NCBI GenBank assembly: GCA_950295325.1
Contig: OX485803.1
Coordinates: forward strand, 39,199,554-39,263,553
Length of the DNA: 64,000 nucleotides
Source of the DNA: Polytrichum commune
Lineage: Eukaryota > Streptophyta > Polytrichopsida > Polytrichales > Polytrichaceae
Reading direction: 5' to 3'
Shown piece after piece: positions 1 through 43,369 of this stretch; position 1 is the stretch's first letter, and each line of letters begins with the position of its first letter. A program made the position numbers and the translations under genes. The notes beneath the pieces were generated by a model. That model had not been told where the DNA came from. It saw only the letters and a program-made list of their open reading frames with translations, and made no database searches.

Positions 1-2757
1 ACACATGCGAAACAAAAATCAGCATTTCCACAATCCTGCAGCCATCCACACATCATGTTAATGGCGTAAACAATTGAAATAGAAACTACAAAGGTCATTG
101 ATGAAGCAACTCCTTTGAACTAACACAAAAAGGGATCGTACCTGAAGGCAAACTTTGGCTGGATTTATTGCACATATCTTGCAAGGTTGAAGTATTTTTT
201 TTGCAATGTTGGGACTGGTCGCACTATTGGGTGAATCATCATGTGATAGATGAGGTGAATCATCAGGGGAATCTTGTTGTGACTCCTCAGGTATTTGGTG
301 AGGTGTGGGGAGTCCAGGTATATGAGCAGTAGCCAATGAATGTGGTGATGCAGTCGAAGGTGAGCTGGATGGAGCATAGCACGATGCCCCATGTTCCACA
401 ATAGTTCCTGAATCTGCAAAAACAACAAGTACTTGGAAATCAATTTTTTATTTATTGATTTTATGGTTCAAAGGATTTTTTCCTGAAATTTTTATGCAAG
501 GTAAAAGTAGTAAGTCAGGAATGTTAAAAGTACTTTGGCATGCAAAAGGAAGGCAACATGTCACTCAAGGAAAGTTCAGGAATTTGTGAACTAGTTTTGG
601 TATGATTTAGGACCTTTGAAGTACTTTAATATTGAGAGGAGGAAAAAAAAGTAAAGTACTTACAAGGCAAGTAATCTATGAAAATAAGAAATAAATAGCC
701 GGAAGTACCAAGTATTCATAAAGGACTTTGTGCCGATGGCAAAGGGTTTAGGAAGTTCCTGAAGATTGAAAAGGACTCCCATACATCCTTAGGCTTTACT
801 TTCGCCTAAACCCTAAACCCACAGAATTCACCCATGACTTCCAAGGAATTCATTGAACTCCAAACACATTCCATGCATGTCAAGAATGGGTTTTTTGTTC
901 TTGCATGAAGCATACAAAGAAAGGACTTTGTCTTGAATATACTCTAAAGCATGCAGAAGATATAAGGAGAAGGGAATGAAAACAAGTAGTACTAGGAATG
1001 TTTGCAAAGTTATTTAGGTCATTTATTTCACTAAACAAGAAATGAACACATAAAATAATGCAAGTTAGAGTAAGTGTGCTCACCAGATTGAGGAGATATG
1101 TTGTTTAAGGCAAGAATTGTAGGCTTCCGCCCATGTTCTCCATAAGGTCTTATTCCCCATGTTGTGAGGCATTTGATGTCAATATCTTCTCCACGATCAG
1201 GAACTAAACATGCTAGCGAATTTCTAGCATGTTATGTAAAAACACCGTGGATGGTAGGTGTGGCCACAACTAGCTGCCAAATGCTCATGACATTCATACC
1301 ACAAATTGCAAACACGACAAGGGTTGAGTATGGAAATACTCTCTTTTGGGGAGTCTGGATGTGAGGGAAGGGGTTGTGGATAGAGGATTGCACCTCCACC
1401 CTTCTCCATTCTCAAAATTCGTTGTTGGAAAGCAGGTTGCAAGGACTCCAAGGACTTCATGATGACCAAAATAGATTTGTATTCCTTCCCGTCTAAGCCC
1501 TCGCCTTCATGTAGGGCATCACACTCCTCTCTGGTAACCCTAAGCTTCTCTACTGCATACCTCTCAGTCATCCTTTCACATGCTTTCTGGCATTCTAATT
1601 CCTTAAGGGTTTCAGAAGCCAACCTCAGCGCATCTTTCTTTTGAGCAATTTCAGAATCAAAGTGCCCAATATCAGATCCACTGTATCCAATGTCTAAACA
1701 AGCGGATTTTTTTCACTAAAAGGTCTTTAAGCACGGTCTCTAAGTTCTCAACAACCACCTTGGCTGCAGTAACTTTAACATCATATTTCTCAAACTCAGA
1801 CAGGGTTGCATTGTAAATGGCTTCATGCTAGGATAACAAAAGTTGAATCCTTTGAGCCCCAATAGTTTTTTTTCTCTCCTTCTAATTTGAGGACCTCTGC
1901 CTTCTATTTTAGACTTGCACACAATTGTTCTTTACGAACCAATGTGGCTTTCATGCCCTCAATGTCCAGTACAGACCAATTAGGAGGTGTTATAACCTTC
2001 GCAGATGTCATTTTCCCTCAACCCATTCTAACCTCAGAAGGAACTCTAATAAGAAGTGGTGCCCACCTTGAAATGGGAGTAGAAGAACACGTCTTAGCTA
2101 CTACAGATCCCCTAATACCAGATGGTTTAGGGGGATGTGACATGACCCCACTAGACCCTTGCTCACGTTGTTTCTTATTAGTATTTTTTGCTTTTACAGA
2201 GCACACCTTCACTCTGTGAGAATGAAGATGTGCAGCAAAGGCCGCCCAATTGACTTCAACACCCCTACCCTCAAGAAGGAGTCCCCGAGCAAACTGTAGA
2301 GTAAGTTCATTGTTAGTAATTTTGTTTTTAGAAGTCACTATGCAATACAATTCTTCAACTTCTCTAGCCGCTTCCGGTGTGAGGCGGTAATCATAACGCG
2401 AGCCATTCTTACTGGACTTTGGACCAAATGCTTGTTCCAACTCTTCCTTGCTAACATCCCTCTGTGAAATCCTCAACACATCCAGTCTGTTATTGCGCAG
2501 ACCCTTCATTGCCTGAAACCATTGGGGCATTCTGAAGGTTGCCAATACTTTTTACCTGCACATGTGGTTTCTAAATACATTGTGTTATTGAAAAACTTGT
2601 ATAACTTCCAGAATACAAACAAAAGGATCACAAAAACATGTTTTCCACACAACTGAACAATAAACACAGTGTAATGATGAAAACCTAATGTAATTTTACT
2701 CACCTTTGTCAATGTTTGTGCAACCTTGCCAATGCAAAATGGAATGAGAATCTTCAT
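1..2757 (-). pseudogene. Decayed multi-exon gene: coiled coil plus RING-like Cys/His cluster, 3' end outside window
   Basis: Read on the minus strand. Exon 1 is 2757-2704 (ATG, 18 codons, donor AAAG|GTGAGT). A long exon runs from about 2550 to 1084 (donor CTG|GTGAGC), and the next exon is 413-142 (acceptor TTTGCAG, donor CAG|GTACGA). The phases of the last two join correctly (G + AT gives Asp). The long exon encodes a charged segment (about 2545-2020), a Lys/Glu-rich probable coiled coil (about 1990-1400) and a cluster CRVCNLWYECHEHL...CGHTYHPRCF (1230-1320), which resembles a RING-variant zinc finger. The next exon is Ser/Pro/His-rich and ends with another CKIC pair. Damage: in-frame TGA at 2018-2020, TAG at 1904-1906, TAG at 1828-1830, and frameshifts near 1868 (A-run), 1710 and 1235. 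The join of exon 1 to exon 2 is not settled. Function unknown; an E3-ligase-like role would be a guess. It may be a lineage-specific gene or TE cargo. Confidence 0.55.
1225..1325 (-). other. RING-like Cys/His cluster within the decayed gene
   Basis: The translated motif is C-x2-C-x5-C then CGH-x-YH-x2-CF, with further Cys residues downstream in a shifted frame (ACLVP, IKCLTTWGIRP at 1110-1220). The spacing resembles RING/PHD-type zinc ligands. A one-base frameshift lies immediately after the cluster. Metal binding is inferred from spacing alone. Confidence 0.45.
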
Positions 2758-28375: not shown

Positions 28376-28385
28376 GTAGCCAAAG

Positions 28386-28466
28386 GAGGGAAGCTATCTT
28401 ATGAGCAGTGAGCGGTGAGCGGTGAGCAGTAACACATGAGCAATGAGCAGTAACATATGAGCAATG
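28386..28466 (+). repeat. Left terminal inverted repeat and subterminal GAGC repeats of the MULE
   Basis: GCTATCTTATGAGC at 28392-28405 is followed by a degenerate 7-bp tandem (GAGCGGT, GAGCAGT, GAGCAAT). The right end has the same arrangement on the opposite strand. Such subterminal repeats commonly serve as transposase binding sites; here that is inferred. Confidence 0.85.
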
Positions 28467-28732
28467 ATTCCAAATTTAGTAAAGACACACGGGTTTAGGG
28501 TACACAACCAAAATTTTGACAAATTAATTGCATATTTTCAATTGTAAATTGCCAATATTTTAAATGAAGCACAAGTGAAAGGGCCCTATTTCCATAGATC
28601 ATTTAAAACACTTTCAATTCATTGCTGATTTTTATTATAATAATCCAAACCAATATATGTCATTTATTGACATCCTTATACATGTAGTTACAACCAACAC
28701 TTGCACAACTACTCACATTCCACAACACCATC

Positions 28733-28842
28733 AAGCTCAAGTAGGTGCATAACCTCATTATACGTACATGTAGGTGCCATAATTGTGAGCCACTCAAACT
28801 GCTCACGGGTTGAATTAAGGCCCATAATCTACAAATGAAAGG
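28733..28842 (-). pseudogene. Duplicated last exon of the MULE transposase
   Basis: On the minus strand an acceptor TTTCATTTGTAG precedes an open stretch ending APTCTYNEVMHLLELDGVVE-CE-stop. It is homologous to APTYTYNEVIRLLELAGIVE-CE-stop at the end of the main transposase ORF (29284). The surrounding 28.45-28.83 and 29.06-29.36 kb are also similar (CATTGCTGATTTTTATTATA blocks), so the transposase 3' end was tandemly duplicated. This downstream copy has an intact acceptor and could act as an alternative terminal exon. Confidence 0.6.
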
Positions 28843-28894
28843 AAATTAGATATTAGAAATAGTCAATATGTAGGTAACTACTAGGTTTTGAGAC

Positions 28895-28975
28895 ATCCGC
28901 CTGTGGATGCGAGTTGTGTAAGAGACTGGTATTAGGTCTGTATCAACCCGGGTTCGAATCCGGTTGGTTACATTG
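28895..28975 (+). other. Pol III B-box-like / SINE-like fragment
   Basis: GGGTTCGAATCCGG matches the B-box / T-arm consensus. The T-stem pairs poorly, no acceptor stem or anticodon arm could be folded, and the upstream A box is only approximate. It is more likely a SINE or tRNA fragment between the two copies of the duplicated transposase 3' end than a functional tRNA gene. Confidence 0.35.
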
Positions 28976-29412
28976 ACTGGTGCTATCCCAAATTGAGCTA
29001 GTGATAAAGCAGGAATAATTTATAGGCGGATACCAAGAAGACGTTACTACGTGGATGTGCGTAGAATCTTCTCAATTATTTTTTATTTTTAGAAACTTGT
29101 TATTATTTATCCATGTCAATCAATCAAACCGCTCACGGTTGGGTCGTAGTCTAAATAGAAATGAGTTACTGAATCATTTGAAATACTTCCAGCCCATTGC
29201 TGATTTTTATTATAAAAATCCAAACAAAAACATGTCATATTTTGACATTCAAATATATGGTACTTAATAGACCATTTGCAATACTACTCACACTCTACAA
29301 TACCAGCAAGTTCAAGTAGTCGTATGACCTCGTTATAGGTATATGTAGGTGCATGAATGAATTTGTCACTCTCGTAATCCACCTTGCACAAAAATCTAAA
29401 CACATAATAAAG

Positions 29413-29490
29413 ATGTTTACAATACACCCATTTTCCTTTCTTTCCCAATGCATGAGAGGACATTTTCGTGAAATCCGGGCATGTGCAATG
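29413..29490 (-). other. SWIM zinc finger of the transposase
   Basis: The translated motif PHCTCPDF...GKWVYCKHLYYVF gives C-x-C-xn-C-x-H, the SWIM signature (C-x-C at 29479-29487, C-x-H at 29413-29421). SWIM fingers are the usual C-terminal domain of plant MULE/FAR1-type transposases. The upstream block WPIVPNTWPVKI recurs in the relic at 5.75 kb. Confidence 0.85.
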
Positions 29491-30217
29491 CGGGATGTCG
29501 CCAATTGTGACATGGTAGGTGATATCCTGCTTGGAGACAATGTTGATTATCACTCCAAAGCCCGGATATGGAATGGCAGTGACCCCAACCACATAGTAAC
29601 CCTCCATGAGCCCGGCGCTCTCCCATTTGTTTTTGTGATCCGCTAGCGGTGCTGTTGGATTACGACGCACTGTCTTTCCAAACCTGAATGTAGGGTGGGC
29701 GTCCGGGTTTGGTGGCATAGAAAAATGCGAGCGAGGGATGGGGAGAGTTGCGATTGTTGAAAGCCTACGACGAGGGGACAATGCCTCCCTCTGCTGTAGT
29801 TGAAATCCAGCATCTTCAAGTGCCAAAACCTCCTCTCGCGATAGATTGGTACCTATCTTCACCGGCCATGTGTTGGGTACTATAGGCCAGTCCAACACAT
29901 ATTTCTTCTTACTGCCACTCACACAACGTTTGATGTCGTCAGGGCAAAACCAAAATTCATACTCCACATTGTTGGGAGAGCGAAATTCCTTCCTGAGCCC
30001 TTTGTATGTTGGAGCAGGTGTGCCATGTTTCCCAGTCCCGACTTTGGCATTGCACATAGTCCCTGTGATGGCCTGCAGTGCCCAACATCGTTTGGCTGAG
30101 TTGGGTGGTAATCTTGCAATGTGCCACTTGGAAGCAAGACAATCTGTCTCTAACACGGATGTAGTATGAGCCACACCATGAATTGTAGAACTCAATGTGA
30201 GGCCAAACCCCCCACCC

Positions 30218-30430
30218 TTAAGCGTTCGTAGTCCGAGTAGTGGGTTTGGGCTCACATTCCTCCGTGGCATTGGCCTTAGGCTTGGATATGTCCTTTGATG
30301 ACTCAAGTGTCCAATTCCTTGCCTTGTACGCGCAAGCCCAAGCGGATATTCCCTTCTTCCTTTTACCAATGGTTACCTTCACTTCTTTAGGGTCCTTGAG
30401 CTCCTCACTAGGTTTGGTTGTTGAGTCCAT
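30218..30430 (-). CDS. Small conserved ORF inside LTR-like element B (70 aa)
   Basis: ATG at 30430, Lys-rich; the core KKGISAWACAYKARNWTLES aligns with the 59-aa ORF at the same relative position in element A. The stop lies 22 bp from the element end. No known family recognised and expression unknown. Confidence 0.45.
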   Translation of the reverse strand: MDSTTKPSEELKDPKEVKVTIGKRKKGISAWACAYKARNWTLESSKDISKPKANATEECEPKPTTRTTNA

Positions 30431-30849
30431 AGTGCAAGGATCAACTTTTTAACCTCTACTTAATAATTCAATACACCATGCATGGTATGGAAGCATCCAA
30501 ACACACAAATCTTTATTTGACAATCCAAGTGAATAGTATTAAGAAATACTTTTCTCCAAGGCTTATTGTCTCACAATCAAAGCATCAAGCCCAACGAGTC
30601 TACTCCTCAAGCTTCCTACCCTACCAATCACTTAAACACAACCACCCCAACCTCAAAAACTTAGGAATGTGGCTCTTGGTCCATCACAATCACCAAATCC
30701 TCATTTTTCTATCTTCCTCCATTTTTTTCATTCAAGGTGAGTAGATTCCCCCATAGAAGAACCCCGGCAGTCTCCAACAAGACCCTTCCCGAGGTCTCAG
30801 TCTCAAATCTCCGGGTGTAATTTTGCGCTGTTCTCCAATTGTTCTGCCC

Positions 30850-31200
30850 GTCATCGCCCGTCACTTTCTTCCTTGAGGCACCTGTTCCCCGCAGACAGAG
30901 ACCAGCTCCTTGTTAGCCCTCCTCTAGTTAGGCTAGCTTCGAATTAGCTAGCTCCTGCTTTGCTCGGCCCTTAATTAAGCTGCTCCTAAGTACGGTAGCT
31001 AGCTCCTGATTTGCTTGGCCTTGATTAGCCAGCTCCTACGTAGCTAGCTCCTCTCTGGCCTAACTTCAAATAGTCCGGCTTCTAATTTGCCAGCTCCTTA
31101 GTTAGCTCAACTCGCAATTAGCCTATCTCCTAATTAGCATGGCTCATGATTGGCCTAGATGTCCTTTAAACAATTTGTAACCAACTGCCGGTTCTCCCCG
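30850..31200. repeat. Imperfect AGCTCCT/TTAGCTAG repeats within LTR-like element B
   Basis: Recurrent blocks such as AGCTCCTGATTTGCTTGGCC and AGCTCCTACGTAGCTAGCTCC lie at roughly 30-60 bp spacing. The position corresponds to the 40-bp array in copy A, but the unit is different, so this part of the element evolves rapidly. Confidence 0.5.
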
Positions 31201-32911
31201 ATCATAGCCACCTTCCCCTAATTAGCTGTCGTCTGGTGATTCCTTTGATCTCAGCTTGGTTAGTGCAGCTCCCTTGATTTAATTAATGCAGTTCCCAGTC
31301 TCGGCTTTAGTTGCCACCAACAGTCTCGGCTCAACATTACAAGGTCACGGCTCTTGGCTCATGTGTGAAGTGGACCTGACCAGCAACTGCAGCTAACTAG
31401 GCCCAGCTGCAGAGCTAATCCCAGCTTACAGCTTACCCAGTCTCGGACTCCCAGCACCTTCTCCAAAAGTCCTGCTCCTTCTTCAACAATTCAGGCCTTT
31501 GGCCAAATATTAAACCATTCAAAATAAGTACCATCATCTAATACCAACTGAGTGCGCCAATTTAATGGTTCAAACTAAGCTCTATAAACTAAATGCTATG
31601 AGGTGAACACTATGAACTAAACACTATCACTAAATGCCTTAAGTCAAATACTATATCTAAGCAATGCAAAACCAATCTAAAAACTAGTTTGCCTCGGTTC
31701 TCTACCTAGAACCTTGCACCACACGTGCACCCTTCTTGCTCCACACACACCCACACACACCACATGAGGTGCCAAGAGGGCAAGAAGAAAAGAGAGCCAA
31801 GAGAGAGAGATTAACTAACTACACTAATTCACCCCACTAATTTCCCACACATTGCCTCTAAGTACAAGAGTTTTTCCTACTAACTAAGTCACATCCTCCT
31901 CATGAGCTCTAAGAGCTTCACTTCCTAACATCAACAAGAGAGAGCGAGAATGAGAGCAATCCCCCACCTTACCTCGGACCCCCTTGGGAGTGCTCAACCC
32001 AAACTTAGCCTCCTCCACTTTCCGCCGCCATAACTTTCTCCCCTTACCTTCCCAAATTGTCACTCACCACTTTAATTCAAACCACGATGCTTAAATCGTA
32101 ATTTGATTGGTGCTTTTAGAATTTGCTTATCCTCCATCTTGCATTCTTCGTTGGACCTTCCCCATTAAGTGGCCACGATGAGGTGGTCCACTTGTGCGCT
32201 CAATGTGATCCTCCATTCATCCCAATTCGAATGCACTTGCTTCTTGAGTCACCTTGGTTGTCTCCATCCATTGTACTAGCCTACTCACTAACCATTTGAT
32301 CTAAGCCTTTCCTATCTACCCTACTTCACTCCAATCCTTTTCTACGGTAAAAATACAATAACCACTCACATGCTAGCCTCTTACAACATTGTACTTCTAA
32401 GGCTAACATTTCACTCTTTTTATATTTTTGTGAAGTGATACACCACTTCAACGCACACCAACTAATATTTTCTAACGCTAAGACTAAATGTGGGCACCGC
32501 TTTGGGCTCACACTCAACGATTCCTCTATGCGTTGACGAGTTGCTCGGGTGTTCGGACGAGCAATGGAATAGTTCACTTTGTCGGGTCGATGAGAGTCAC
32601 AATCAGCACCCGGTGGTAGGTTGAGTTTGCGTTTGGTGGAACCAAAGAGCTCTGACCCTTCCAATGCACAATCTCTAGTGTTGACGTCTTCTGCCCCTGG
32701 ATAAGACTTCATGGCATCGGCCAACATTTTTGGATCTCCACACTTGGCAGCCGCTTTGAGTTTCAAGGATGCCGAATCAGGACCTTTACCATCAGACCCC
32801 CCTTTCAACCATGTCCGGTAATTTGCAATTTGCATGAAGGCACGGATCATGTTGTCCACTGTAGCTTCATATAAACAAATCATCTTGTTGCCGGACTGTT
32901 GGAGCCATTTG

Positions 32912-33292
32912 TTGTGTACAGTCTCTGCAAGGTTGCATGTTGGCATTTCCGCACGCTCTTCTATTGTCATATCCTATGAACAACACACAAATACAAGGAT
33001 AAGACAAACATAAGATAGATTATATATCTAGGTTTGGGTCGTTCAACCCAAAATGGCTGCCACGTTTGGGTCGAACGACCCAAACTGCCTACAAGGTTTG
33101 GGTCGTTCGATCCAAACTGCCTACAAGGTTTGGATCGAACAACCCAAATTGCCTACAAGGTTTGGGTCGAACGACCCAAACTGTTTGTTGTTTGTTATGT
33201 ACAGTCTCTGCAAGGTTGCATATTGGCATTCCCGCACGCTCTTTTATTGTCATATCCTATGAACAACACAGAAAGACAAAAATAAGAAAAAC
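32912..33292. repeat. Intron-exon junction duplication flanking a palindrome array
   Basis: The segment GTACAGTCTCTGCAAGGTTG...CGCACGCTCTT...CATATCCTATGAACAACACA occurs at 32915-32990 (real exon start and acceptor) and again at 33197-33270 inside the intron, about 95% alike. The five palindromes at 33031-33182 lie between the copies. The duplicate preserves a second potential splice acceptor. Confidence 0.8.
33031..33182. repeat. Array of five palindromes TTTGGGTCGAACGACCCAAA (transposase intron)
   Basis: Five near-perfect palindromes (centre TTCA, AACG, TTCG or AACA) are spaced about 35 bp apart by CTGCCTACAAGG linkers. The same palindrome family recurs at 37938-38092 in the divergent gene's intron. 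The overlapping plus-strand reading frames (GRSTQN, GLDRTTQ types) are repeat artefacts. Confidence 0.9.
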
Positions 33293-33554
33293 ATAGGATA
33301 TATTACATTGAATAATGAAGTTTGATATGTACTTACAAGTAGCATATGGCCACCCCATTGTCTGTAACGAAAGTGCCAAAATCCCAACCACTCTGAAAGG
33401 CCAAGGATGCCTTCTTCGGAGGCAGCTCCAGATGACAACCACCAAGAACGAATAACATGGTACTTGGTCTCAGCGTCGTCCATTGTTTTCGCGTCTTTGT
33501 AATCTTTGCATATTTGTTTGTGTTGAAATTGCAAGGATGGTTTGATATACTTTT

Positions 33555-33890
33555 GGGTCACCTTATCCAAGCTTGCGGACCAATGAAAAATACATGTACA
33601 TTCACGTGCAACCATGGGTAGACTTGGATCACCATCCCCGTAAATCGCCCTCACCGCATTCCAATTAGCTTGAGCACTATCAGCCATAAACCCTTTGAAG
33701 TTTACGTTTGGTACATCATTATCTGCCATGACAACATTCAAATTTTCCCAAAAAAAAATTTGCGCTGCACCATCTTCAGATTGCATGTCACAACACGCAA
33801 TAGTCAACACTTTACAGTATCGACTGTCGTACACATGGCAAGCCATGGTCGTCCAGTCCTTCAAACGTTTGGCATTGTCAAACATAATCC
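33555..33890 (-). other. MULE RNase-H-fold transposase core
   Basis: Candidate first acidic residue in HVYDSRYCKVLTIACCD (about 33790-33840). Candidate second Asp in NFKGFMADSAQANWNAVR (33650-33710). The C/H motif ECTCIFHWSASLDKVTQ (33555-33610) sits where MULE transposases have C-x2-H before the helical C-terminal part. The order and spacing fit the MULE family; the third acidic residue was not identified with certainty. Confidence 0.6.
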
Positions 33891-34344
33891 ATGAATTCTC
33901 CATATCCCCACCAACTTGCATCCTCTTCACAAGCTCCACACCACTACCTGGAAGGTCTACAGACATCTTAAAAACAAACACATTGTCCTTTGACTGCCCT
34001 GGGAACCGACTACCATAGACGAATTTGAAAGCAGAGTGGTCTTTAAGCGCCATAATACTATCCATAGTTCCCATTCCACTACGCAAAAAACGCTTTGATC
34101 CAGATACAAAGTTACGACAATTTGGAGACACAAGAGTGCTGAATTTTTCCATGACGACCTCTAGGCATGAACCAACCAAGTGATGGCCTTCGACATTTGC
34201 GGGAGATTTGAGAAGGTAATCGGCCAAGAATTGTTTGCTCGCCGCCATAACTATGGCTGAATTTTTTGTTGTGGGTGTTTTCAATACTTCATTTGCAACG
34301 CATTGGTATGCCATGTCCAATGATTCACGGCATGTGCCATTGGC

Positions 34345-34630
34345 CACAGGGTGATCATGTACACCAAGATGAATGCAAGCCCTGGACATTCCAACGGATG
34401 TGGAGTGAATGTATATGATTCGAGCATTACACAAAGTAATGCACACAGGTGTGGAACGACATACCTTACACTCGACAGTGGACTTAGTAGGGGGAACAAC
34501 ACCCACAGCAAATGGGATAGGAGTTGAACCGGCCCATTCAGTGTTGTTCCGGAGGCCCCCATTGCGATTCATGTAATCACAGTAGTCATTATGACATTGG
34601 AGATGACCAGCACAAGTAGAGCGCCGGAAG
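34345..34630 (-). other. WRKY/GCM1-like zinc cluster of the transposase
   Basis: CAGHLQCHNDYC starts the cluster (C-x5-C-x4-C), followed by CKVCRSTPVC and a closing GVHDHP (H-x-H). MULE transposases often carry WRKY-GCM1/FLYWCH-type DNA-binding domains N-terminal to the catalytic core, ending in an H-x-H or H-x-C pair. The exact ligand assignment is inferred. Confidence 0.6.
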
Positions 34631-35340
34631 GACAGTACAAAGTCATTTTGGATATTCGTGGTTTGGTGGTGCACCAAGGGTGACCGTCGCACATCTTGTC
34701 CATGCCGTCCATTGAGCGACCATACGTACTTGGAGCTTTGACTGCCATAGGAGGCAAGAGAAATAAAACATCACCATTAAAAGAAGATGGTAAGTATTTG
34801 ACTTCACGAACATCTATACTGTCAAAATCAATGGATGCAAGATCGGACTTTGATTTTTTTTCTTGACTTTGTCAGCTTCAAGGCATCAACTATAGTCAAC
34901 CCTGTAGATGAAGGTGAAGGGTGTAGTAGAGGACGTTGAGAAGGTGAAATTTGGAGAACCACCTTCTTGTACATAAGACCGCAAGGGGATTTGGTTACAT
35001 GCATAGGAAGTTGGGAAATAGTAGAATGAACACTTCTAAATGGAAATGGCGATGTGTTTGAAAGATCAACAGATGCACAAATGTCATCTTCTGAATCTGA
35101 TAGCACAAATACACTATTATCAAGGGGTTCCACCTTAACAGGTGTGATAGAGGGAATTCGAACTGTGGATGTACCGGATTCGTTTGTCAAAATGACAGTT
35201 GAAGCTTGCATTTGAAACTCAGAAAGTCCTATCACCCTAAATGAACCAGGTCCTAAGATCCACATAAAACCAACATCAGTTCTATTTTTTTGGAACCAAA
35301 ATCGTTTCATACACCTCTCCATCTGCAGAGTACATCTCAT

Positions 35341-35996
35341 GCTCTAAATACATGGTTCCTATCTAGAGGTTGAATCTCAAACTAAGTAAATCCTCTGAAA
35401 CATTCACATGACCATCATCTTGGAGTGGCAAGATGAAGGGAACAAAAGATCCATGAGCTCTAATGGTAGCCATAGAAAATCAAAAGACCATATGAACAAC
35501 ACATCACAAAAATATGGGTGAATGTTGCTTTTGTATAGAGTTGTGTGAAGAAATGAATGGAAATGAAAACGTGTGATACAATAATGGATGGAAATGAAAG
35601 CGTGTGATACATAACATCTAATAATATAGAAGTGGACATAATACAATAATAGTCAAAGACTATTTACGAGCAAGATATACACAAAACGGCGTCAAATACT
35701 AAAAGGATTGATAGAAATTTAAAATATATATATGTGTGGACTGACGCAGATGTAGAAAGAATTAAAATTGGTTGGAAAAATAAATTATTGATCATTATGA
35801 ATAGAACAAAGTAGGTGTCAGAAAATTTTGGCGGATATAACAAAAATAAACACATAATGACAAACGCGTTGAAATATCTCGTTCATTGAACGCCAATTAC
35901 AACATGTGATCGTAATATACGCCGGATTATGTGAGATAGATACATTGGAAGAATAAATGATAGTACCTGATAGAAAACATATCATAGACACCAACG
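35341..35996. promoter_or_regulatory. Shared upstream region of the divergent transposase and methylase genes
   Basis: 656 bp between two divergent start codons. It contains an AT-rich TAAAATATATATATGTGTGG stretch (35718-35738) and a tandem pair of ATGGAAATGAAA(A/G)CGTGTGATAC units (35555-35612). A bidirectional promoter is inferred from layout only; no transcription start can be fixed. Confidence 0.4.
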
Positions 35997-36369
35997 ATGG
36001 TAGACGATGTAGAAAGAACACCCGTGAGGCCGAAGAGAAGACGTAGGAAAGCTTTGTATTTCACTTCCGAAAAAAAAAGATTCAGACTCAGTGTGGGAAA
36101 AAATGATGCAAAAAAAGAAGAGAAAAGAAACTTGTTGAGTATGGTAGAAGAAACTGTGAAGACACTGGATTTTGATGCGATGGAGGATGATGAAGGTGCA
36201 AAGAGCAAAGAAGATGTAGACGATCGTATATCAGAGTCCGAATTAAAGACGGGTTCAAAGAAGACAATAAACAAAAAGGTAAGTCGGTTCAACGTTCACA
36301 TAATTTGATAGTGCATAAGTTGTAAGTTAGGACGGAGAACCTTGTACGTTCACTCACATGTCATGTAGT

Positions 36370-37060
36370 ACCAATTTATAGAGGTTATAAATTGGAGAGG
36401 AAAAACCCTATACGTTAATGCACATGGTATATAACAGAAATTTAGGAAGGCTAGAAGTCAGGAGGAGAACGCACTTAAGAGCAACTTAAGAGACGAGAAG
36501 TTGGGAGGCGAAATCATGTGCGTTAACGCACATGATTTATAAGAGCAATTTAAGAGGCGAGAAGTTGGGAGGTGAAACCCTGTACGTTAACGCACAGGGT
36601 TTATAAGAGCAACTTAGGAAGGCCAAAGTTGGGAAGAGAAACACTGTGCGTTAACGCACAGGGTTTATAAGCACAACTTAGGAAGGCCAAAGTTGGGAGG
36701 AGAAACCCTGTGCGTTAACGCATAGGGTTTGTAAGAGCAACTTAATAAGGCGAAAAGTTGGGAGAAAAAACCCTGTGCGTTAACGCACAGGGTTTATAAG
36801 AGCAACTTAGAAGGCAAAAAGTTGGAAGGCGAAACCCTGTGCGTTAACGCACAGGGTTTATAAGAGCAACTTAGGAGACAAAAAATTGGAAGGCGAAATC
36901 CTGTGCGTTAACGCACATGGTTTATAAGCGCAACTTAGGAAGGCCAAAGTTGGGAGGAGAAACCCTGTGCATTAACGCACAGGGTTTATAAGCGCAACTT
37001 AGGAAGCCCAAAGTTGGGAGGAGAAACCTTGTGCGTTAACGTACATGGTTTGTAAGCGCA
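36370..37060. repeat. Array of ~10 palindromes GTGCGTTAACGCAC, ~60-bp period, intron 1
   Basis: The unit is CCCTGTGCGTTAACGCACAG with GGTTTATAAGAGCAACTTAG and AAGTTGGGAGGAGAAA linkers. At least ten units are present, most with a perfect GTTAAC centre. Both the palindrome and the linker are conserved, so it arose by tandem duplication. It lies between exons 1 and 2 of the ParB/methylase gene. Confidence 0.9.
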
Positions 37061-37509
37061 ACTTAGGAAGGCCAAAGTTGGGAGGTAAAACGACTAGGAG
37101 AGCCTAAAATTAAAACAAATATCTATTGTATGAATTTAAATCGATGTTCAGAACATAGGAGCAAAAAAACTATTCAAAACGAGGTTAGAATGCAAGAAAT
37201 GACAAATATGACTACTCAAGTATTCATGCAATACGTTATAGGAGCTAGAAAATGACACAAAATAGCATAAATTTTTTTTTGCCCCGAAATCCAAAATTTA
37301 CGAGGTGGCCCAAAACAAGGAAATAGATAGAAGAATGAGAAAAGAAAATCATTTCAAACCAAAACAAAATATCAGAAGAATTTGTAGCTACGGAGATTTA
37401 GATAATATAGCATATTTTTGTTTTTTTTTTTATCCCATTAGCATTTTTTTCCAGATTTGACAAGTTTTGGCAAATCTACGAATTCCAGACCCTCAAATTC
37501 ACGTCTCGG

Positions 37510-37725
37510 CCCTGTGCGTTAACGCACAGGGTCTATGTGCTAACGCACAGGCCTTATGTGCTAACGCACAAGGTGTATGCGGTAACGCATAGTGGCTAGA
37601 AAGTTGCCAGCGCAGACCCTGTGCGTTAACGCATAGGGTCTACTTGCCTAGCTAGAGGCTTCGCAAAGTTGGGCAAGTAGACCCTGTGCGTTAACGCACA
37701 GGGTCTGCGCTGGCAAATTTCTAGC
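37510..37725. repeat. Second GTTAACGCAC block with a nested large hairpin, intron 1
   Basis: Five more palindrome units (two of GTGCTAACGCAC type). 37597-37650 (GTTGCCAGCGCAGACCCTGT onward) is inverted at 37670-37724, giving a ~50-bp stem whose arms are themselves palindromes. The spacer is TTGCCTAGCTAGAGGCTTCG. Confidence 0.85.
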
Positions 37726-37937
37726 GGCTATGCGGGGCCACGAAGAGCCATGCTAAATATGGCTGCAGGGACAAGTAGTATAAATTGTCACAACCCCAAA
37801 GCATTTAGTCTTTTTTGTCTCCTCTGTCGGACCTGAGCTCATCGCTGCAAGCTCTCTCATCAACAGGTGCAGTACAAGGTTTGTTGGCACTTTCGTGGTG
37901 ACTGGGTAATTGCGCATAATCAGGCGTAAATTACGGA

Positions 37938-38092
37938 CAGTTTGGATCGGCCGACCCAAATTGTGTGCCTAGTTTGGGTCGATCGATCCAAACTGTGTGC
38001 CTAATTTGGGTCGGCTGACCCAAACTGTGAGCCTAGTTTGGGTCGGTCGACCCAAACTGTGAGCAGGGTTTGGGTCGTTCAACCCAAACCTC
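37938..38092. repeat. Array of five palindromes TTTGGGTCGGTCGACCCAAA, intron 1
   Basis: Five units with centres GGCC, ATCG, GCTG, GTCG and TTCA, spaced about 32 bp by CTGTGAGCCTAG-like linkers. Same palindrome family as 33031-33182, but with different linkers and centres. Confidence 0.9.
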
Positions 38093-38240
38093 GCGTCCAA
38101 CTTTGTTAGACCTGTAGTTGGACGCACAGGGTCTGGCCTTGTAGTTTTGGGGTGAGCGGCCACCCTAATCGTACAATATTTGAAGGTGCAAATGACTGTG
38201 TCTAGAATAATTTTTGTCATTCTTCCCTGTGTTCGTGGTA

Positions 38241-38300
38241 TTCTGTTGTTATTGTTGTTGTTATTGTTGTTGTTATTGCTGTTGTTTTTGTAATGTTATT
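38241..38300. repeat. GTT-rich simple repeat in intron 1
   Basis: TTGTTGTTATTGTTGTTGTT-type microsatellite about 60 bp before the exon 2 acceptor; it may serve as a pyrimidine-poor spacer only. Confidence 0.7.
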
Positions 38301-38607
38301 GCTAATGTGTTGCTACTGGTTTTGAAATATTTATGAAACTTATTTCATTTGTTTTAGGACCAATCAATGGATTTGAAAAGAACGACTCTTATTTCTACTG
38401 ATGATGATTCCACAATGCATTCAACTCAAGATCGTCCATCTCAATAAGTTCATCATCATCAGAACATATCATCAAATCTTCATAATAAAAAAAAGAAAAA
38501 AATAAATGAATCCCTCGATGATTTTGACTCGGATGAAGATAATGATGGTGACAATATGTCGCAACCCTTGCTAGGTCCTTTAATAATCTTGCCAATTTTC
38601 AATTCTA

Positions 38608-39530
38608 GCAAAGGTTACGAGTCGCTAACCCTTCGCATTCCGCCATGCTAATGGATAGCTCCTCTTACCTCGGACCAATAGTTCATAGGAGGGAACCAAC
38701 CCTCCTACTTTGCTTTCGGGACTCACCCCTTAATCGGTAACCCATTTCCCCAATGTGGACTTCCATCCATGGAAGTCCAATCCTATGTTGATCATCGCGT
38801 TGCCGGAGCAACACTACAACAACCCGAACCATACTAGGCAACTATGGCCTCACAATAGGCCAAAGCCCATGGAGGCCTTGCCGTTCGGCCTCGGGTGGGT
38901 GAGGCCACACCACCTCACCCATATAAGCCTCTAGGACTCTACGCGGGGCCCCTACCCCACCGTCAACCAACCTCTTGTCTCTCTACCAAGAGTTGGGGCC
39001 AAGTGGACATTTTCCCTTAGCCGCTGGGCCTAGAAGCCCCCAGCAGCTTCAGACCATTATAACTTCCTTGTATGATGTCTGATTCCAGCAACCAACCACT
39101 CCATCTTTATCTACGCTTCACGTAGATGCCGATGGACTCCTCACTTGCCCCATTCGGGCAAGTGGTGAGGAAGTTATGCCTGTTTGAACCTTGGCAGTCC
39201 CGGGAATCACTCCCAGGCACTGCTGTAGCAGGGCGCTGTCCCGGGACAGCGCCCCACTCAAATGGCCATAACTCCTAGCTCACACCTCGGATTGAGGTGT
39301 TCTTGAGCATTCTAGGATCACCACGCCATGAGCTACGCATAGCTCATGGCCTTACCGTTGTGCCTCCTAGTCTTCGTGGATGGGAGGCGTTCCCAACGCC
39401 CGGGGACCTCATCCACACTTGGATCACTTGGGCCCTCTCACCAAAGGCGCCACAAGTCCCGGGTGTCACTCCGGGGTCCCCCTTGTGCCCATGGTGTTTC
39501 GGGCACTCCTCATGGAGAGGTGCGCGACAC
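38608..39530. mobile_element. GC-rich hairpin-dense insertion splitting the ParB-domain exon
   Basis: Composition changes sharply from AT-rich to GC-rich between two coding blocks that share a frame. The block holds at least eight short palindromes, for example GACTTCCATCCATGGAAGTC, GCTGTCCCGGGACAGC, CACCTCGGATTGAGGTG and CATGAGCTACGCATAGCTCATG. Candidate ends are GTCGCTAACC on the left and its imperfect complement GGTGCGCGAC on the right, but no target duplication was confirmed. It could also be an unusual retained intron (GT at 38608). The open frame across its right half is fortuitous. Confidence 0.5.
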
Positions 39531-39639
39531 AATAAATCTTATCAAGACAAAGTGTGGGAGCTTACGAACAAACGAAAGGTCAATTCCACTTCCACAATTT
39601 CTTCAATCCGTGCTGGACCTAATGCTCGCTTGCGTGTAC

Positions 39640-40063
39640 CCTTATGTCGCATGGTTTCTATGCCGATTGTGCGTTCTGCTTTGAAGGGTAACATTACTAA
39701 ATTGGAGGCTGATTTTTTCAATGGTTATCGTGATGGTGACCGTGTGTTTTATATATCGGCCACCGATTCTAAGGAAAACTTTCAATTCGTGGATGATGAG
39801 GTTCGCGCATCTTGGAGCCCAAATTGGGCTCAAGCCAATGCCCTGTTTGAATCTCAATTGGATACAGATTTGTCATTGACGTCATACAAGAATAAGATAT
39901 TTTTTATATGGGATGGAAATCACAGATTTTTTGCTTGGAAAAATTATATTGACCGCGTATATACCGAAGATTATGAACGTCATGTCTTTGTGGATTCTAT
40001 CATTTTGGCGCCCCAGCCTGACGACATTCCAAGTTTGTTGACTGCTATGCATGACATCAATAA
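39640..40063 (+). other. ParB/sulfiredoxin-like domain
   Basis: The translated exon reads VRSALKGNITKLEADFF...DGDRVFYISATDS...KIFFIWDGNHRFFAWKNYI. The G-x-H-R-x2-A signature after a beta strand, with an upstream strand-helix, is the ParB/Srx nucleotide-binding motif. Followed by VFVDSIILAPQ and a helix, it fits the fold order. In ParB this site binds CTP, in sulfiredoxin ATP. Assignment is by motif only. Confidence 0.6.
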
Positions 40064-41908
40064 GTAATGTTCTTACCTATTTTTTTACACTTATTTCTAG
40101 TCTATATTTTGTTTCCCAAATTATATCATCATGAATCTAATCAATTTAATGTTTTTTTCAGGTCAACCGAAAATTCTCACGTATCCACCAATTTGGTACA
40201 TACTTTATATCGGATGCAAAGTATTGGCACCATGCCTTTGACTTCCTTCAGAAAGCAACTGGATCCAAAGAGTTATAAACGATGTGAGGAGAAGTCCGTC
40301 GAAACTTGGTATTCTTTGACACGACCAATTTTTTTGGATTACATGTACAGTGTAAGTTCTTCTACCATTGCTAATATGTGCCTTATGTTTATTCACCTTC
40401 ATTTTACATTACATCTATATGAACTTATAAATATTGACTTTTGTTTGATTTTTCAGCAAGAACTTGCTGAGGCTAGCGATATTGCTCTCAACCAGTACAA
40501 TGAAATTCATCCTCTTGAACGGACATCAGACGGAGTTTCAAAAGCAATGTCCGCAGCTGTCAACAAAAAACGTGCAATTTTATCTTCTAGTTTTACGAAA
40601 CAACTAGCGATTGCCGATATCAACCTTACCTCTGCTTTCCTTGAAGAAGTTAAGCACCATTGGGGTTCATTTTCGGTGCCTGAAATGCTACAAGAGAAAC
40701 TTCATCGTGTTGCTGTCAGTAATGTGGATACAGAAGTCAAAGTTGGATGGCTCAAGCTTTGGAATGACAATAGATTTGACAAAGATGCATTGCATTTCCC
40801 GAAATCGCCCCTCTCTGATTCTGCACTTGATGATTGGTTATCAAAATCTACATATTGGGCACAGTTGGAAAAAAAGACTATCGAAGAGCTTCAAAGTATT
40901 ATTTCATCTCCTCTTCAGTTGCCTGCAGATGTGCCTACTCTCTCCGAGTATATCCAAACCTGGAAGTTTGCGGCTTTCAATTCAATATTCTATCGTGAAT
41001 TCCAAAGCAGAAAAGTTAAAAAACACAACGGTTGGAATGAGCAACCTAATATTGATCTTGCTATGAAACGTGTATTATACAGATACAACCTAATCTTATT
41101 ATTTTTTTGATTTTTTTTTATTCCATTTGTCAAATTGTCATGGAATATTTGACTTACAATATTTTTGTGTGTAGGTATTTTCGATATGTTTTGATTCCAC
41201 ATAAATGCGTTATAGGGGAACCTCGTTTTTTCCCAAATTGGCGTGACACTGGTGCAGGAGATTCATGCATGTTCACTACTGAGATTTGTTTGGATTGGTC
41301 GCTCCCACACTATGAGGATTGTGGTTGGTATCTTGATTGTCCTAAGGATGCATGTCCGTCAAGTGAGAAGACAATCCGTCAGATAAATGATGCTAAAAAT
41401 GTGGATCCTCGTGATACTGCAATTTTGCAAGCACAAATTGTGCAGCTTAAACTTAGAGAGCCAGAACCAAAAGAGACAAAACATCGTTAGAGGAAACATG
41501 TTCTTGAAACCAAAATACAAGATCAATCGGAAATTTAACAACATGAAGAATTGCTTGTTCTTTCCAATGATTTGGATAAGAATCCACTTGGAGGCGAAAG
41601 TTCAAAGTCTGGGTGCGATGTATTGGAATTCCATTACTCGAGCACCTATGACGCTATTCATCGTGCGCCAAAGAATGTTTTGAGAAAAGAGTTATTCATA
41701 CTGAAAAACTTTCTCACGCTCTCTTTTGCTCGATCTACTGCTGTTAAGAACAAGTCTGAAGGGGTTGAAGTAGGCCCTCCTGAGTGGATCCAATGGCGGA
41801 CATTTTTTGAAAACGTAAGTATTATTGTTTTGGTATTTTCTGTAATGTTCTTACTTTCATTTGGATTTTATTTTGTGTCTTATATTGTGATATATTGTGG
41901 TATTTCAG

Positions 41909-42700
41909 TTCAAAGACAATCGCGAATTTCATGTCATGGGAAGTCCGACTCCATTTGCCGTTGACTTGGTTTTTCTGCAATTTCCCGACGGTCTTGACTT
42001 CAACCTCTCCAATAGACCTGCTGAAATTCCTCTTTGGAATAAATATGACAAGAACTGGATGGTTGCAACAATGTCCTTGTGCAAGTCCATCTTGTCTGAA
42101 GATGGCGTCCTCATAGTATTTTCTGCTATCGATATGCAAACCAAGAAGGTTTTGAATTCAACCTTACACAACGGCAACATGAAAGTTCTTAGGACTTTTA
42201 TTTGCCTCAATTCGTACATGGTGTTCAAGGATCCGGAGTCTCCAACCTACACCGTAAGTATAACATATCACAATTGTTTCTATTTAATTATTTTGGTGTT
42301 ATTTGCATTGTATATAGTTTTAACACAATTTATATTTTTTTGTAGACTCCGGCATTTATGGCTCATGTCTTGGTAAGGGATTTTACTACCACAAAATCCA
42401 CGAGACAACCAAACTCCATTTTTTTTGGCACTGGATTGAAAAGCAAAAACTTGCTTTTCAATTTTGTGGATGAAAAAAACATGCTTCTTCAAAAATCGGG
42501 AAGACCTTGGAGGGGGGCATATCAAAAATCGCCGCGTTTTTTTCAAGATCTTATTGAATTGTACACCATCGAATGGACGCGTTGTTGATTTGACATGTTC
42601 CACTGGAGCTTCTATCCTAGCAACACGCGCATGTGGCAGACATCTTCTTGCATTTGAGGGTGATAATGACATGTTTGAGCACATATTGAAACCGCTTTTG
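41909..42700 (+). other. Beta-class-like DNA methyltransferase domain, degenerate
   Basis: Order seen: DLVFLQFPDGL (41965-42000) where a DPPY/SPPY tetrad would be expected; WMVATMSLCKSILSEDGVLI (42055-42117), like the helix and strand after motif IV; KSPRFFQDLIEL (42525-42560), like the motif X entry; VVDLTCSTGAS (42583-42615), motif I; GRHLLAFEGD (42634-42663), motif II. The G-x-G of motif I reads C-S-T-G, and the catalytic tetrad is not preserved, so catalysis is doubtful in this copy or possibly in the family. A one-base frameshift falls between motifs X and I. Confidence 0.6.
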
Positions 42701-43288
42701 GAAAACGTTTTGAAAGAGGGGTCATCTAAGGAGAATATACAAGATCTCACAAAAGAAGATGATAACCTCTCAGATGAGGAGATGCTTGAATTTGAGTGTA
42801 AGTAAGTTTTAATACAATAAATTTTTATTCAATTCATTCGTTTCATTCAATTCATTGGTTCATTTTTATTTCTTCACATTATTTACATGTTTCATCGATT
42901 TGATTTCAGGAATACGATTGGAAAGAGGACATGTCTCCCGTTTTGGGCACATAGACAATTCCTACGAAGTCCAAGCCGTAGCCCGCGTCTCCCATCATAT
43001 GCCGAAAATGTTGCAATTGCAATGTTGAATCTCGAAGATTCGGATCCAAATGAAAAATCTTGCTATAGTTCCAAAATCAATTCGCAATGCAAAGGTGCTC
43101 GAATATATATAGATGACGAGGCAAAAGATAGTTTCATGTCTAGTGCTACTACTGATGAATAAATTTTTGGACTTCATGTTGTTTATCCCTCTCAACCCTC
43201 TTATTACTAAACCCTAAAATCATCATTTTTAAGGCCACAATTCCACGGTTATAGGATATTGGTGGCCCTATTACCAAAAATTTCATCT

Positions 43289-43359
43289 TCCTCACTGCTC
43301 ATAAGTTACCGCTCATCGCTCACCGCTCATTGCTCACCGCTCATAAGATAGCACTCCCC
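43289..43359 (-). repeat. Right terminal inverted repeat and subterminal GAGC repeats of the MULE
   Basis: On the complement it reads GGGGAGTGCTATCTTATGAG then GCGGTGAGCAATGAGC repeats, mirroring the left end at 28386-28466. Followed by the target duplicate GTAGCCAAAG at 43360-43369. Confidence 0.85.
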
Positions 43360-43369
43360 GTAGCCAAAG

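Follow-up and report, generated by a model that had tools for sequence, protein, structure and literature searches.

The window analysed here, 64,000 nucleotides of Polytrichum commune DNA, carries at 28386-43359 a representative of a high-copy DNA transposon. The element is of the Mutator type, measures about 11.7 kb when unbroken and contains two divergent genes, a transposase gene and a ParB/methylase-like gene. The latter is an integral, selected accessory gene of the element. Arrays of long palindromes are located upstream of it. We propose that the transposon encodes a sequence-specific ParB-type binder of its own palindrome arrays which would keep the element expressed despite silencing. 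We assign this proposal a probability of about 0.5. As far as our searches go, the novelty resides in the palindrome arrays next to the ParB gene; ParB-methylase genes of transposons are already known from algae, as far as the published descriptions available to us extend. The features of the window copy are:

28376-28385, no strand: left target-site duplication GTAGCCAAAG, repeated exactly at 43360-43369
28386-28467, plus strand: left terminal inverted repeat, with subterminal GAGC repeats and an approximate inner boundary
29284-32973, minus strand: transposase exon T2 with a SWIM-like CxCx(n)CxH pattern, split in the window by a nested insertion
30196-32511, no strand: nested insertion, about 2.3 kb long and lacking in 5 other copies
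33032-33181, no strand: 32-bp tandem array of dyads GTTTGGGTCGNNCGACCCAAAC, within a presumed transposase intron
33290-35475, minus strand: transposase exon T1, broken in the window copy by frame changes, boundaries approximate
36406-37703, no strand: 64-bp tandem array plus outliers, dyads CCCTGTGCGTTAACGCACAGGG, between the two genes
37940-38089, no strand: another 32-bp tandem array of dyads GTTTGGGTCGNNCGACCCAAAC, which lies upstream of the ParB exon
38360-40066, plus strand: ParB-domain exon with an approximate 5' boundary, split by a nested insertion
38556-39528, no strand: nested insertion of 973 bp, solo-LTR-like, absent from 5 other copies
40162-41067, plus strand: middle exons of the ParB/methylase-like gene (40162-40351 and 40457-about 41067)
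41178-42799, plus strand: exons of the methylase-like domain, with stops and a frame change in the window copy
42908-43029, plus strand: last coding exon of the gene model
43286-43359, minus strand: right terminal inverted repeat with an approximate inner boundary
43360-43369, no strand: right target-site duplication GTAGCCAAAG

Because the 10-bp GTAGCCAAAG is present exactly at 28376-28385 and 43360-43369, the element spans exactly 28386-43359. A preliminary description of this DNA had reported these perfect duplications as well as inverted ends with GAGC repeats; both are correct, the ends being imperfect, GAGC-rich inverted repeats which match each other. Other copies with such ends, which it had suggested looking for, abound in the genome: with at most one mismatch GCTATCTTATGAGC occurs 410 times forward and 419 times in reverse, compared to 14 and 12 occurrences of the reversed control. 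The length of about 15 kb is valid for the window copy, not as a typical size, as two later insertions missing from 5 of 5 copies have enlarged it from about 11.7 kb. Their absence was judged by comparison with all five full copies fetched. By eye, both have TG...CA ends, combined with a 5-bp CTCAA repeat (30196-32511) or a CAATA repeat (38556-39528).

Co-mobility of the two genes was examined in 26 end-pairs from C1 and C2:1-39.3 Mb. The 5' marker of the ParB gene lies inside 25 of them, and the 26th has the 3' exon of this gene. With the gene or its 3' part in 26 of 26 end-pairs, it belongs to the element and is not trapped cargo. Duplications of 9-11 bp flank 18 of 20 end-pairs (null 1/380) and 4 of the other 6, i.e., 22 of 26. 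Such duplications and inverted repeats bounding a transposase are two traits of a MULE. A listed transposase is positioned divergently upstream at 93 of 136 ParB markers; same-strand and convergent arrangements were encountered once each. For 34 of 131 top transposases the ParB lists, which are partial, hold no ParB partner. A rough first-look count gave 1204-1363 ParB-gene candidates. The earlier notion of a two-gene transposon lineage, with both genes co-occurring between the inverted repeats, is borne out; the designation of the ParB/methylase-like gene as cargo has to be abandoned, since the gene is integral and under selection.

The transposase is less well defined at the domain level. 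Of the MULE transposase with a SWIM finger described initially, the SWIM-like exon on the minus strand stands, with the CxCx(n)CxH pattern present; its Pfam score in the window is weak (PF04434, E=0.076, under the curated cut-off), and the transposase core has no Pfam match there. Six aligned T1 sequences gave no Pfam match to a MULE-type domain at E up to 10. T2 is an uninterrupted frame of 455 aa in copies A1 and B1, T1 an open frame of 742 aa in copy A1. The structure model of the transposase (pLDDT 30) is unusable, and a D...C..H-like layout is discernible by eye only.

The ParB/methylase-like gene is on the plus strand, divergent from the minus-strand transposase inside the same boundaries, as initially stated. 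The nine exons assigned to it were not confirmed; our sequence-based model has seven from the ParB exon onward plus 5' exon(s). In the window copy the gene is disrupted: two of the seven exons checked show 2 stops in the best frame. Recognizable are the P-motif GNHR at about 39910-39940, the motif IV position (DLVFLQFPDG, ~41966) and a motif I-like stretch (VVDLTCSTGAS, ~42585).

A ParB-fold domain in the accessory gene is predicted with modest scores, and the assignment is derived from the modelled structure of a relative, E3, not of the window copy. Residues 13-164 of E3 adopt a ParB/sulfiredoxin fold in the model. In the VIA comparison 29 of 31 rows were named ParB, Noc, KorB, PadC, sulfiredoxin, serine kinase or SbnI, and the remaining two were unnamed proteins; the best Z was 8.5, to 7bnk_A and 7bm8_A (rmsd 2.4 over 94-98 residues). 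Foldseek returned 6sdk_A with a probability of 0.99 and E=0.012; the best E was 0.011, the best rows for the ParB fold had E of 0.01-0.1, and none was at or below 0.001. Profile searches in Pfam, PHROG and NCBIfam and sequence searches against the PDB gave no match for this domain. In 15 of 18 fetched loci the ParB frame has GNHR as its GxxR P-motif; the frame was chosen by this motif itself, and three loci gave none. The genome harbors divergent families of the gene, and the ParB exon is under purifying selection: among 21 pairs examined, dN/dS is 0.06-0.28 in 10 close pairs, 0.25 for A1-E1 and 0.34 for D1-E4, both at high dS; nine pairs are saturated.

The second half of the protein resembles N4/N6 DNA methylases. 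The window matches PHROG 67 'DNA methyltransferase' at E=4.5e-7 and N6_N4_Mtase of Pfam at E=0.027, under the curated cut-off; a hand-joined E3 piece matches PHROG 3008 at E=1.4e-7, and E1 matches PF01555 at E=6e-4, below its cut-off. By eye, a motif I of the SAM-binding type is kept in A, E1, E3, L042 and L045. These matches and the retained motif I would suit an active N6-adenine or N4-cytosine methylase which marks the element's own DNA. The canonical catalytic motif of such enzymes is [DNS]PP[YFW]. It is present in none of the seven readable sequences (A, D1, D2, E1, E3, L042, L045). The position reads QFPD, DLPE, DIPE or DIPD, with D[LI]P[ED] common to six of the seven, and the aromatic residue is missing in all. 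Further, four of six fetched 3' parts (L041, L043, L044, L046) gave no methylase match. With D[LI]P[ED] or QFPD in place of the catalytic motif, self-methylation is doubtful, and the earlier suggestion that the element marks its own DNA in this manner is weakened. An active enzyme, although likewise proposed for the algal relatives in the accessible part of PMC12477816, is therefore unlikely.

The first reading of the sequence makes no mention of the palindrome arrays, which occupy 36406-37703, 37940-38089 and 33032-33181. Arrays of long palindromes lie upstream of the ParB gene, and most divergent families share the core TCGGNNCCGA. It occurs 225 times in 24 ParB loci (0.7 expected) and is absent from the 49,020 b of the window outside the element. 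As in VANC-type systems, there are family-specific motif arrays within the element: 18 of the 24 loci have at least three core dyads. The other six have fewer (none in E2, L035 and L039, one in E3 and L024, two in L028). CTCTCGGNNCCGAGAG was found 2550 times versus 2 for its control, TGTCTCGGNNCCGAGAC 1331 times versus 0. The A family, to which the window copy belongs, has other palindromes, GGTCGNNCGACC and TGTGCGTTAACGCACA. The literature searched yielded no report of such arrays.

The outer arms of 13 distinct palindromes, which derive from few independent lineages, are paired at 56 of 78 positions (shuffled 32.6+-4.9; 0/20000); for the nine clearly different ones the figure is 38 of 54 (23.7+-4.0; 19/20000). 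At the level of sequence the arms are shown to differ in a symmetric manner from one family to the next. Two clusters of palindromes were picked without a ParB match, and both adjoin a predicted ParB exon of the clade matching their palindrome type; one of these exons (L091) has GNHC instead of GNHR. Further clusters outside the ParB lists are at about 467-475 kb, 2.49 Mb and 18.38 Mb of C1. The distance between palindromes correlates with that between ParB sequences (Mantel r 0.44, 4/5000, 15 loci), as common descent alone would lead one to expect. In a single case, the D elements, the two genes are incongruent: the T1 exon of D2 is closer to A (80.2%) than to E1 (74.5%), while in ParB and palindrome class D is closer to E (58-62%) than to A (43%).

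Could another protein occupy the arrays? Candidates are the transposase and a host transcription factor, either of which might bind them as promoter or enhancer, with the ParB-like gene serving otherwise, e.g., assisting transposition. The arrays are located between two divergent genes, one A-family array is inside the transposase gene, and the palindromes of some families resemble TGTCTC/GAGACA, which we take to be known plant factor sites. However, in D elements the palindrome class follows the ParB clade and not that of the transposase, the arms differ from family to family about a common core, which would not be the case for a fixed host site, and ParB genes were confirmed next to two clusters. 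We consider this explanation improbable. Even less can be said for palindromes as by-products of tandem-repeat growth or as sources of hairpin small RNAs, devoid of a protein partner. It would agree with the tandem arrangement, in copy numbers that vary from copy to copy and from locus to locus, and with symmetry which is not detectably maintained within A-family arrays, where no significant compensatory change was seen (the observed value was reached by 1803 and 355 of 5000 shuffles). Yet one core persists in most divergent families despite repeat units of unequal length, about 50 to 300 bp, and the arms differ symmetrically between families. This makes it very unlikely. A host gene caught by chance between unrelated ends, for which no favorable point was found, is rejected in view of the 26 of 26 end-pairs, the constant orientation to the transposase and the 22 of 26 duplications.

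Our best reading is that the element is marked by its own accessory protein, probably as a protection from silencing, and that this protein may operate in analogy to VANC and VirB. The ParB-fold domain would be of the NTP-clamp type, joined to an N4/N6-methylase-like domain which, instead of being a canonical base methylase, may bind SAM or contact DNA. The protein would act as a dimer and recognize the arrays of its own family, upstream of its gene and in introns, as parS-like candidate sites. There it would load and then spread, as ParB/VirB proteins do, and the element would stay expressed despite host silencing. Array binding, clamp behavior and anti-silencing purpose are all three what we infer; to counter silencing, a role suggested initially, is our best guess. 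More tentatively, and with less confidence than in the proposal as such, one may envisage that a eukaryotic transposon superfamily runs its own ParB-parS-like system, in which a pseudo-methylase-fused ParB shields the element by spreading from family-specific arrays, and gene and sites co-diversify and are exchanged between elements as one self-recognition module. Such a system would be independent of VANC and parallel to the bacterial VirB.

The preliminary description considered the combination not to be a described element class. This is unsupported because ParB and N4/N6-methylase accessory genes are reported in the brown-algal Sola1 transposon (Sola1-1_Ec32, Ectocarpus; PMC12477816, as far as available) and, by citation therein (Iyer 2011, Petroll 2025), in green and red algae. 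Common to both is a ParB-like and N4/N6-methylase-like protein of ~1,000-1,100 aa encoded opposite to the transposase in a large DNA transposon. In contrast to Sola1, the element presented here is Mutator-type, has 9-11-bp duplications and resides in a green-lineage host; it also has palindrome arrays and a replaced catalytic motif, a comparison in which the algal side is represented by its description only. Among MULEs, VANDALs carry the anti-silencing protein VANC. In the accessible text of PMC5735166 and PMC10398659, VANC motifs are non-palindromic, 8-9 bases long and in one orientation, whereas here they are palindromes; a ParB or methylase domain is not mentioned there, and VANDAL ends are described as degenerate, unlike the recognizable inverted repeats here. 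VirB is a ParB-family anti-silencing regulator (PMC10653881, in part). With VirB and ParB/Noc our protein would share the ParB-type fold, predicted here, and a palindromic parS-like site, a candidate here; anti-silencing is the role of VirB. VirB is a bacterial plasmid protein for which that portion of the source mentions no methylase domain, and the function of our protein is deduced.

Phage fusions of a ParB-CTPase with an N6_N4 methylase exist and have the same domain pair (PMC12704722, in excerpt); no recognizable close phage relative was found. Of the module said to derive from bacteria or phages, the bacterial/phage type of the domains stands, and a donor did not emerge from limited searches, in which single-protein scans reach close relatives only. 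Viral contigs gave three pattern stretches for the ParB domain of A1 and two for that of L029, prokaryote genomes 22 for L029, in each case no relative. A phage tblastn with the methylase part of E1 yielded 54 records, best E 0.02, with 20.6-36.5% identity in the best 15 of 54.

For this transposon lineage, at least, the published idea of DNA-modifying methylase domains in transposons is put in question. One genome contains the gene, the candidate sites and many naturally diverged protein-site pairs; specificity is thus directly testable. If true, this would be a second, unrelated answer to the problem of transposon self-recognition and escape from silencing; the ParB fold, together with parS-like sites, would have been put to use in a eukaryote.

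The Mutator-type element, which carries a transposase gene and a divergent ParB/methylase-like gene (the ParB gene), extends exactly from 28386 to 43359 of the window and is flanked by 10-bp copies of GTAGCCAAAG, so that the boundaries and the perfect 10-bp target-site duplications (TSDs) reported in the preliminary description are confirmed. Relative to five other full copies the window copy contains two additional insertions, and stops are present in its ParB gene. Thus, the window copy is dead. The larger insertion is probably an LTR-type element because of its TG...CA ends and its 5-bp repeat; the smaller one resembles a solo LTR. The direct repeats, which overlap the transposase gene at its 3' end and occur again immediately inside the left end, are likewise present in the other full copies compared. 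The window features are:

1224-1712, minus strand: open frame of 162 aa, RING-like Cys/His pattern CRVC...C..H...CGHTYHPRC at its end
28598-28777 and 29173-29352: direct repeats, about 80% identical
30196-32511: insertion of 2.3 kb inside the transposase exon; TG...CA ends and CTCAA repeat, by eye
38556-39528: insertion of 973 bp inside the ParB exon; TG...CA ends and CAATA repeat, by eye

The end motif was searched in one genome (408 Mb, 64 contigs; the window is C1:39199554-39263553), with 410 and 419 matches versus 14 and 12 for the control. Among the first 100 places listed there are 26 plus/minus end pairs less than 30 kb apart, 19 of them spaced by 11-13 kb. A match to the ParB exon (ParB 5' marker) lies inside 25 pairs, the remaining pair contains the methylase exon, i.e., the 3' part of the same gene, and a transposase match is listed inside 24. 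The same stretch contains 33 ParB markers, 25 of them within an end pair and 6 others at most 14 kb from an end motif. When TSDs were required to be 9 bp or longer and to contain no more than one mismatch, they flanked 18 of 20 further end pairs versus 1 of 380 mismatched pairings. Six copies were seen whole: the window copy and A1, A3 and B1 (these three by eye) possess 10-bp TSDs, and no TSD was found in A2 and B2. Since the end pairs enclose ParB gene and transposase and TSDs flank most of them, the whole two-gene unit transposes, as had been proposed from the window alone. Of the best 131 transposases, 92 are accompanied by a ParB 5' marker and 5 more by a methylase exon or a divergent ParB; 34 have no ParB partner among the matches listed. 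Open exons exist in other copies: the methylase exon is stop-free in 50 of the 60 best-listed rows. Assignment to the Mutator-like elements rests on TSDs, terminal inverted repeats and a weak SWIM finger; a MULE transposase profile found no match in the element's transposase sequences. The host genome also encodes chlorophyll a/b light-harvesting proteins, with fourteen gene matches of equal best score within 95 kb on another contig (C5:1751760-1846160), a recent tandem expansion. For one of these proteins the solved chains that scored best are 9vfj_2, 8htu_U and 7xqp_a, of which 8htu_U and 7xqp_a are moss structures; the host therefore probably belongs to the green lineage and is perhaps a bryophyte.

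A search with the ParB domain listed more than 100 close relatives within the family of the window copy (A), then others at 44-48% identity, most of them with open frames. From these divergent families (D, E and others) 24 loci were fetched, 6 long and 18 shorter. A divergent transposase is strong in four long loci (D1, D2, E1, E3), weak in E4 and without a match in E2; among the shorter loci a transposase match lies at most 5.5 kb away in five (L023, L025, L029, L030, L039).

The ParB gene model comprises seven exons from the ParB exon on, plus 5' exon(s), and the nine exons initially described are not confirmed; the ParB-like and methylase-like domains stand, joined by a middle part. Sequence profiles match the methylase part only. 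The ParB exon of E3 was modelled with a mean pLDDT of 72 (77-92 in ten-residue blocks within residues 11-140, except 58 in 41-50). Comparison with solved structures by VIA, which re-aligns Foldseek's list only (modest E-values, best 0.011), gave a best Z of 8.5; 29 of 31 rows are ParB, Noc, KorB, PadC, sulfiredoxin, serine kinase or SbnI, and two are unnamed proteins. According to PMC12704722 sulfiredoxin, SerK and SbnI belong to the ParB-CTPase fold. The scores suggest a ParB fold weakly though consistently. dN/dS of the ParB exon is 0.12 (A1-B2), 0.24 (D1-D2) and 0.28 (L027-L024); further close pairs gave 0.12, 0.13, 0.06, 0.07, 0.26, 0.22 and 0.27. For A1-E1 (0.25) and D1-E4 (0.34) dS is high, and saturation affects 9 of the 21 pairs. 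The ParB exon is under purifying selection, the closest pairs including post-insertion drift.

The methylase-like domain has kept a SAM-type motif I. The canonical catalytic motif of such methylases is [DNS]PP[YFW]; at its position are QFPD (A), DLPE (D1, D2, E1, E3), DIPE (L042) and DIPD (L045). Because this conserved motif looks non-catalytic, the sequences argue against an ordinary 6mA/4mC activity and weaken the earlier idea that the element marks its own DNA. A methylase match is absent in 4 of 6 fetched gene 3' parts, perhaps due to long introns or insertions, or to loss.

Arrays of palindromes (dyads) lie near the ParB gene. With a tolerance of up to 5 mismatches, the six A-type copies each have 13-24 dyads like CCCTGTGCGTTAACGCACAGGG in a 64-bp unit and 10-20 like GTTTGGGTCGNNCGACCCAAAC in a 32-bp unit, the latter also within the transposase gene. 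Divergent families possess their own arrays with a common core, e.g., CCCTCTCGGNNCCGAGAGGG, AGGCCTCGGATCCGAGGCCT, GTGTCTCGGGGCCGAGACA and GGGTTTCGGTACCGAAACCC; one further type is TGTCTCGG..CCGAGACA. In the 24 divergent loci TCGGNNCCGA occurs 225 times versus 0.7 expected, with at least 3 copies in 18, and 5 of 6 gene 3' parts contain 1-11 dyads each. Across the genome the core is found 11555 times versus 6045 for the control, and longer forms are nearly control-free (2550 versus 2; 1331 versus 0). Positions beyond the searched core are paired above chance in 13 distinct consensus palindromes (56 of 78) and in 38 of 54 cases in 9 clearly different ones (19 of 20000 shuffles); inside the A-family arrays no covariation was seen. 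On the window's contig, C1, palindromes of the form TCGGTACCGA and others are clustered over 7 kb (C1:467248-474782) between A-type ends 49 kb apart (C1:433664/483255), perhaps nested elements.

Two palindrome clusters on C1 outside all ParB lists served as a prediction test, in which solely the neighbouring DNA was examined. A ParB exon adjoins both, in each case of the clade having that palindrome type: at the TGTCTCGG-type cluster (15.22 Mb) it shares 78% identity with L037 and 74% with E4, and it is at the TCGGATCCGA-type cluster (2.25 Mb; both flanks examined, ParB gene on one, L038 left out of the queries) 84% identical to L031. In family D the C-terminal transposase exon is 94.5-96.5% and the larger transposase exon 79-80% identical to A, the ParB shares only 43% identity with A and 58-62% with E, and the palindromes are of the TCGGNNCCGA class. 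In this one lineage, a possible case of module exchange, the palindrome class thus travels with the ParB gene rather than with the transposase, and mainly for this reason we attribute the arrays to the ParB-like protein.

A ParB-methylase transposon gene as such is of a known kind because algal transposon genes and phage fusions have been described: the brown-algal Sola1 element has a ParB + methylase accessory gene opposite its transposase (PMC12477816, which also cites green and red algal cases), and ParB-methylase fusions are reported in phages (PMC12704722). The preliminary claim of an undescribed class is therefore not supported; in the literature searched we found no earlier report of its Mutator-type setting, of palindrome arrays with symmetric family-specific arms, of a link between palindrome type and ParB clade, or of the missing catalytic motif.

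For ParB proteins, recognition of palindromic parS sites and spreading as CTP clamps have been described, and the ParB relative VirB, whose parS-like site is palindromic, lifts silencing (PMC10653881). VANC of VANDAL MULEs is described as binding family-specific tandem motif arrays, with which it co-evolves, and as removing methylation (PMC5735166, PMC10398659). The parts for both logics are present in the element: its ParB-like protein may bind the palindrome arrays, would spread from there and could thereby counter silencing.
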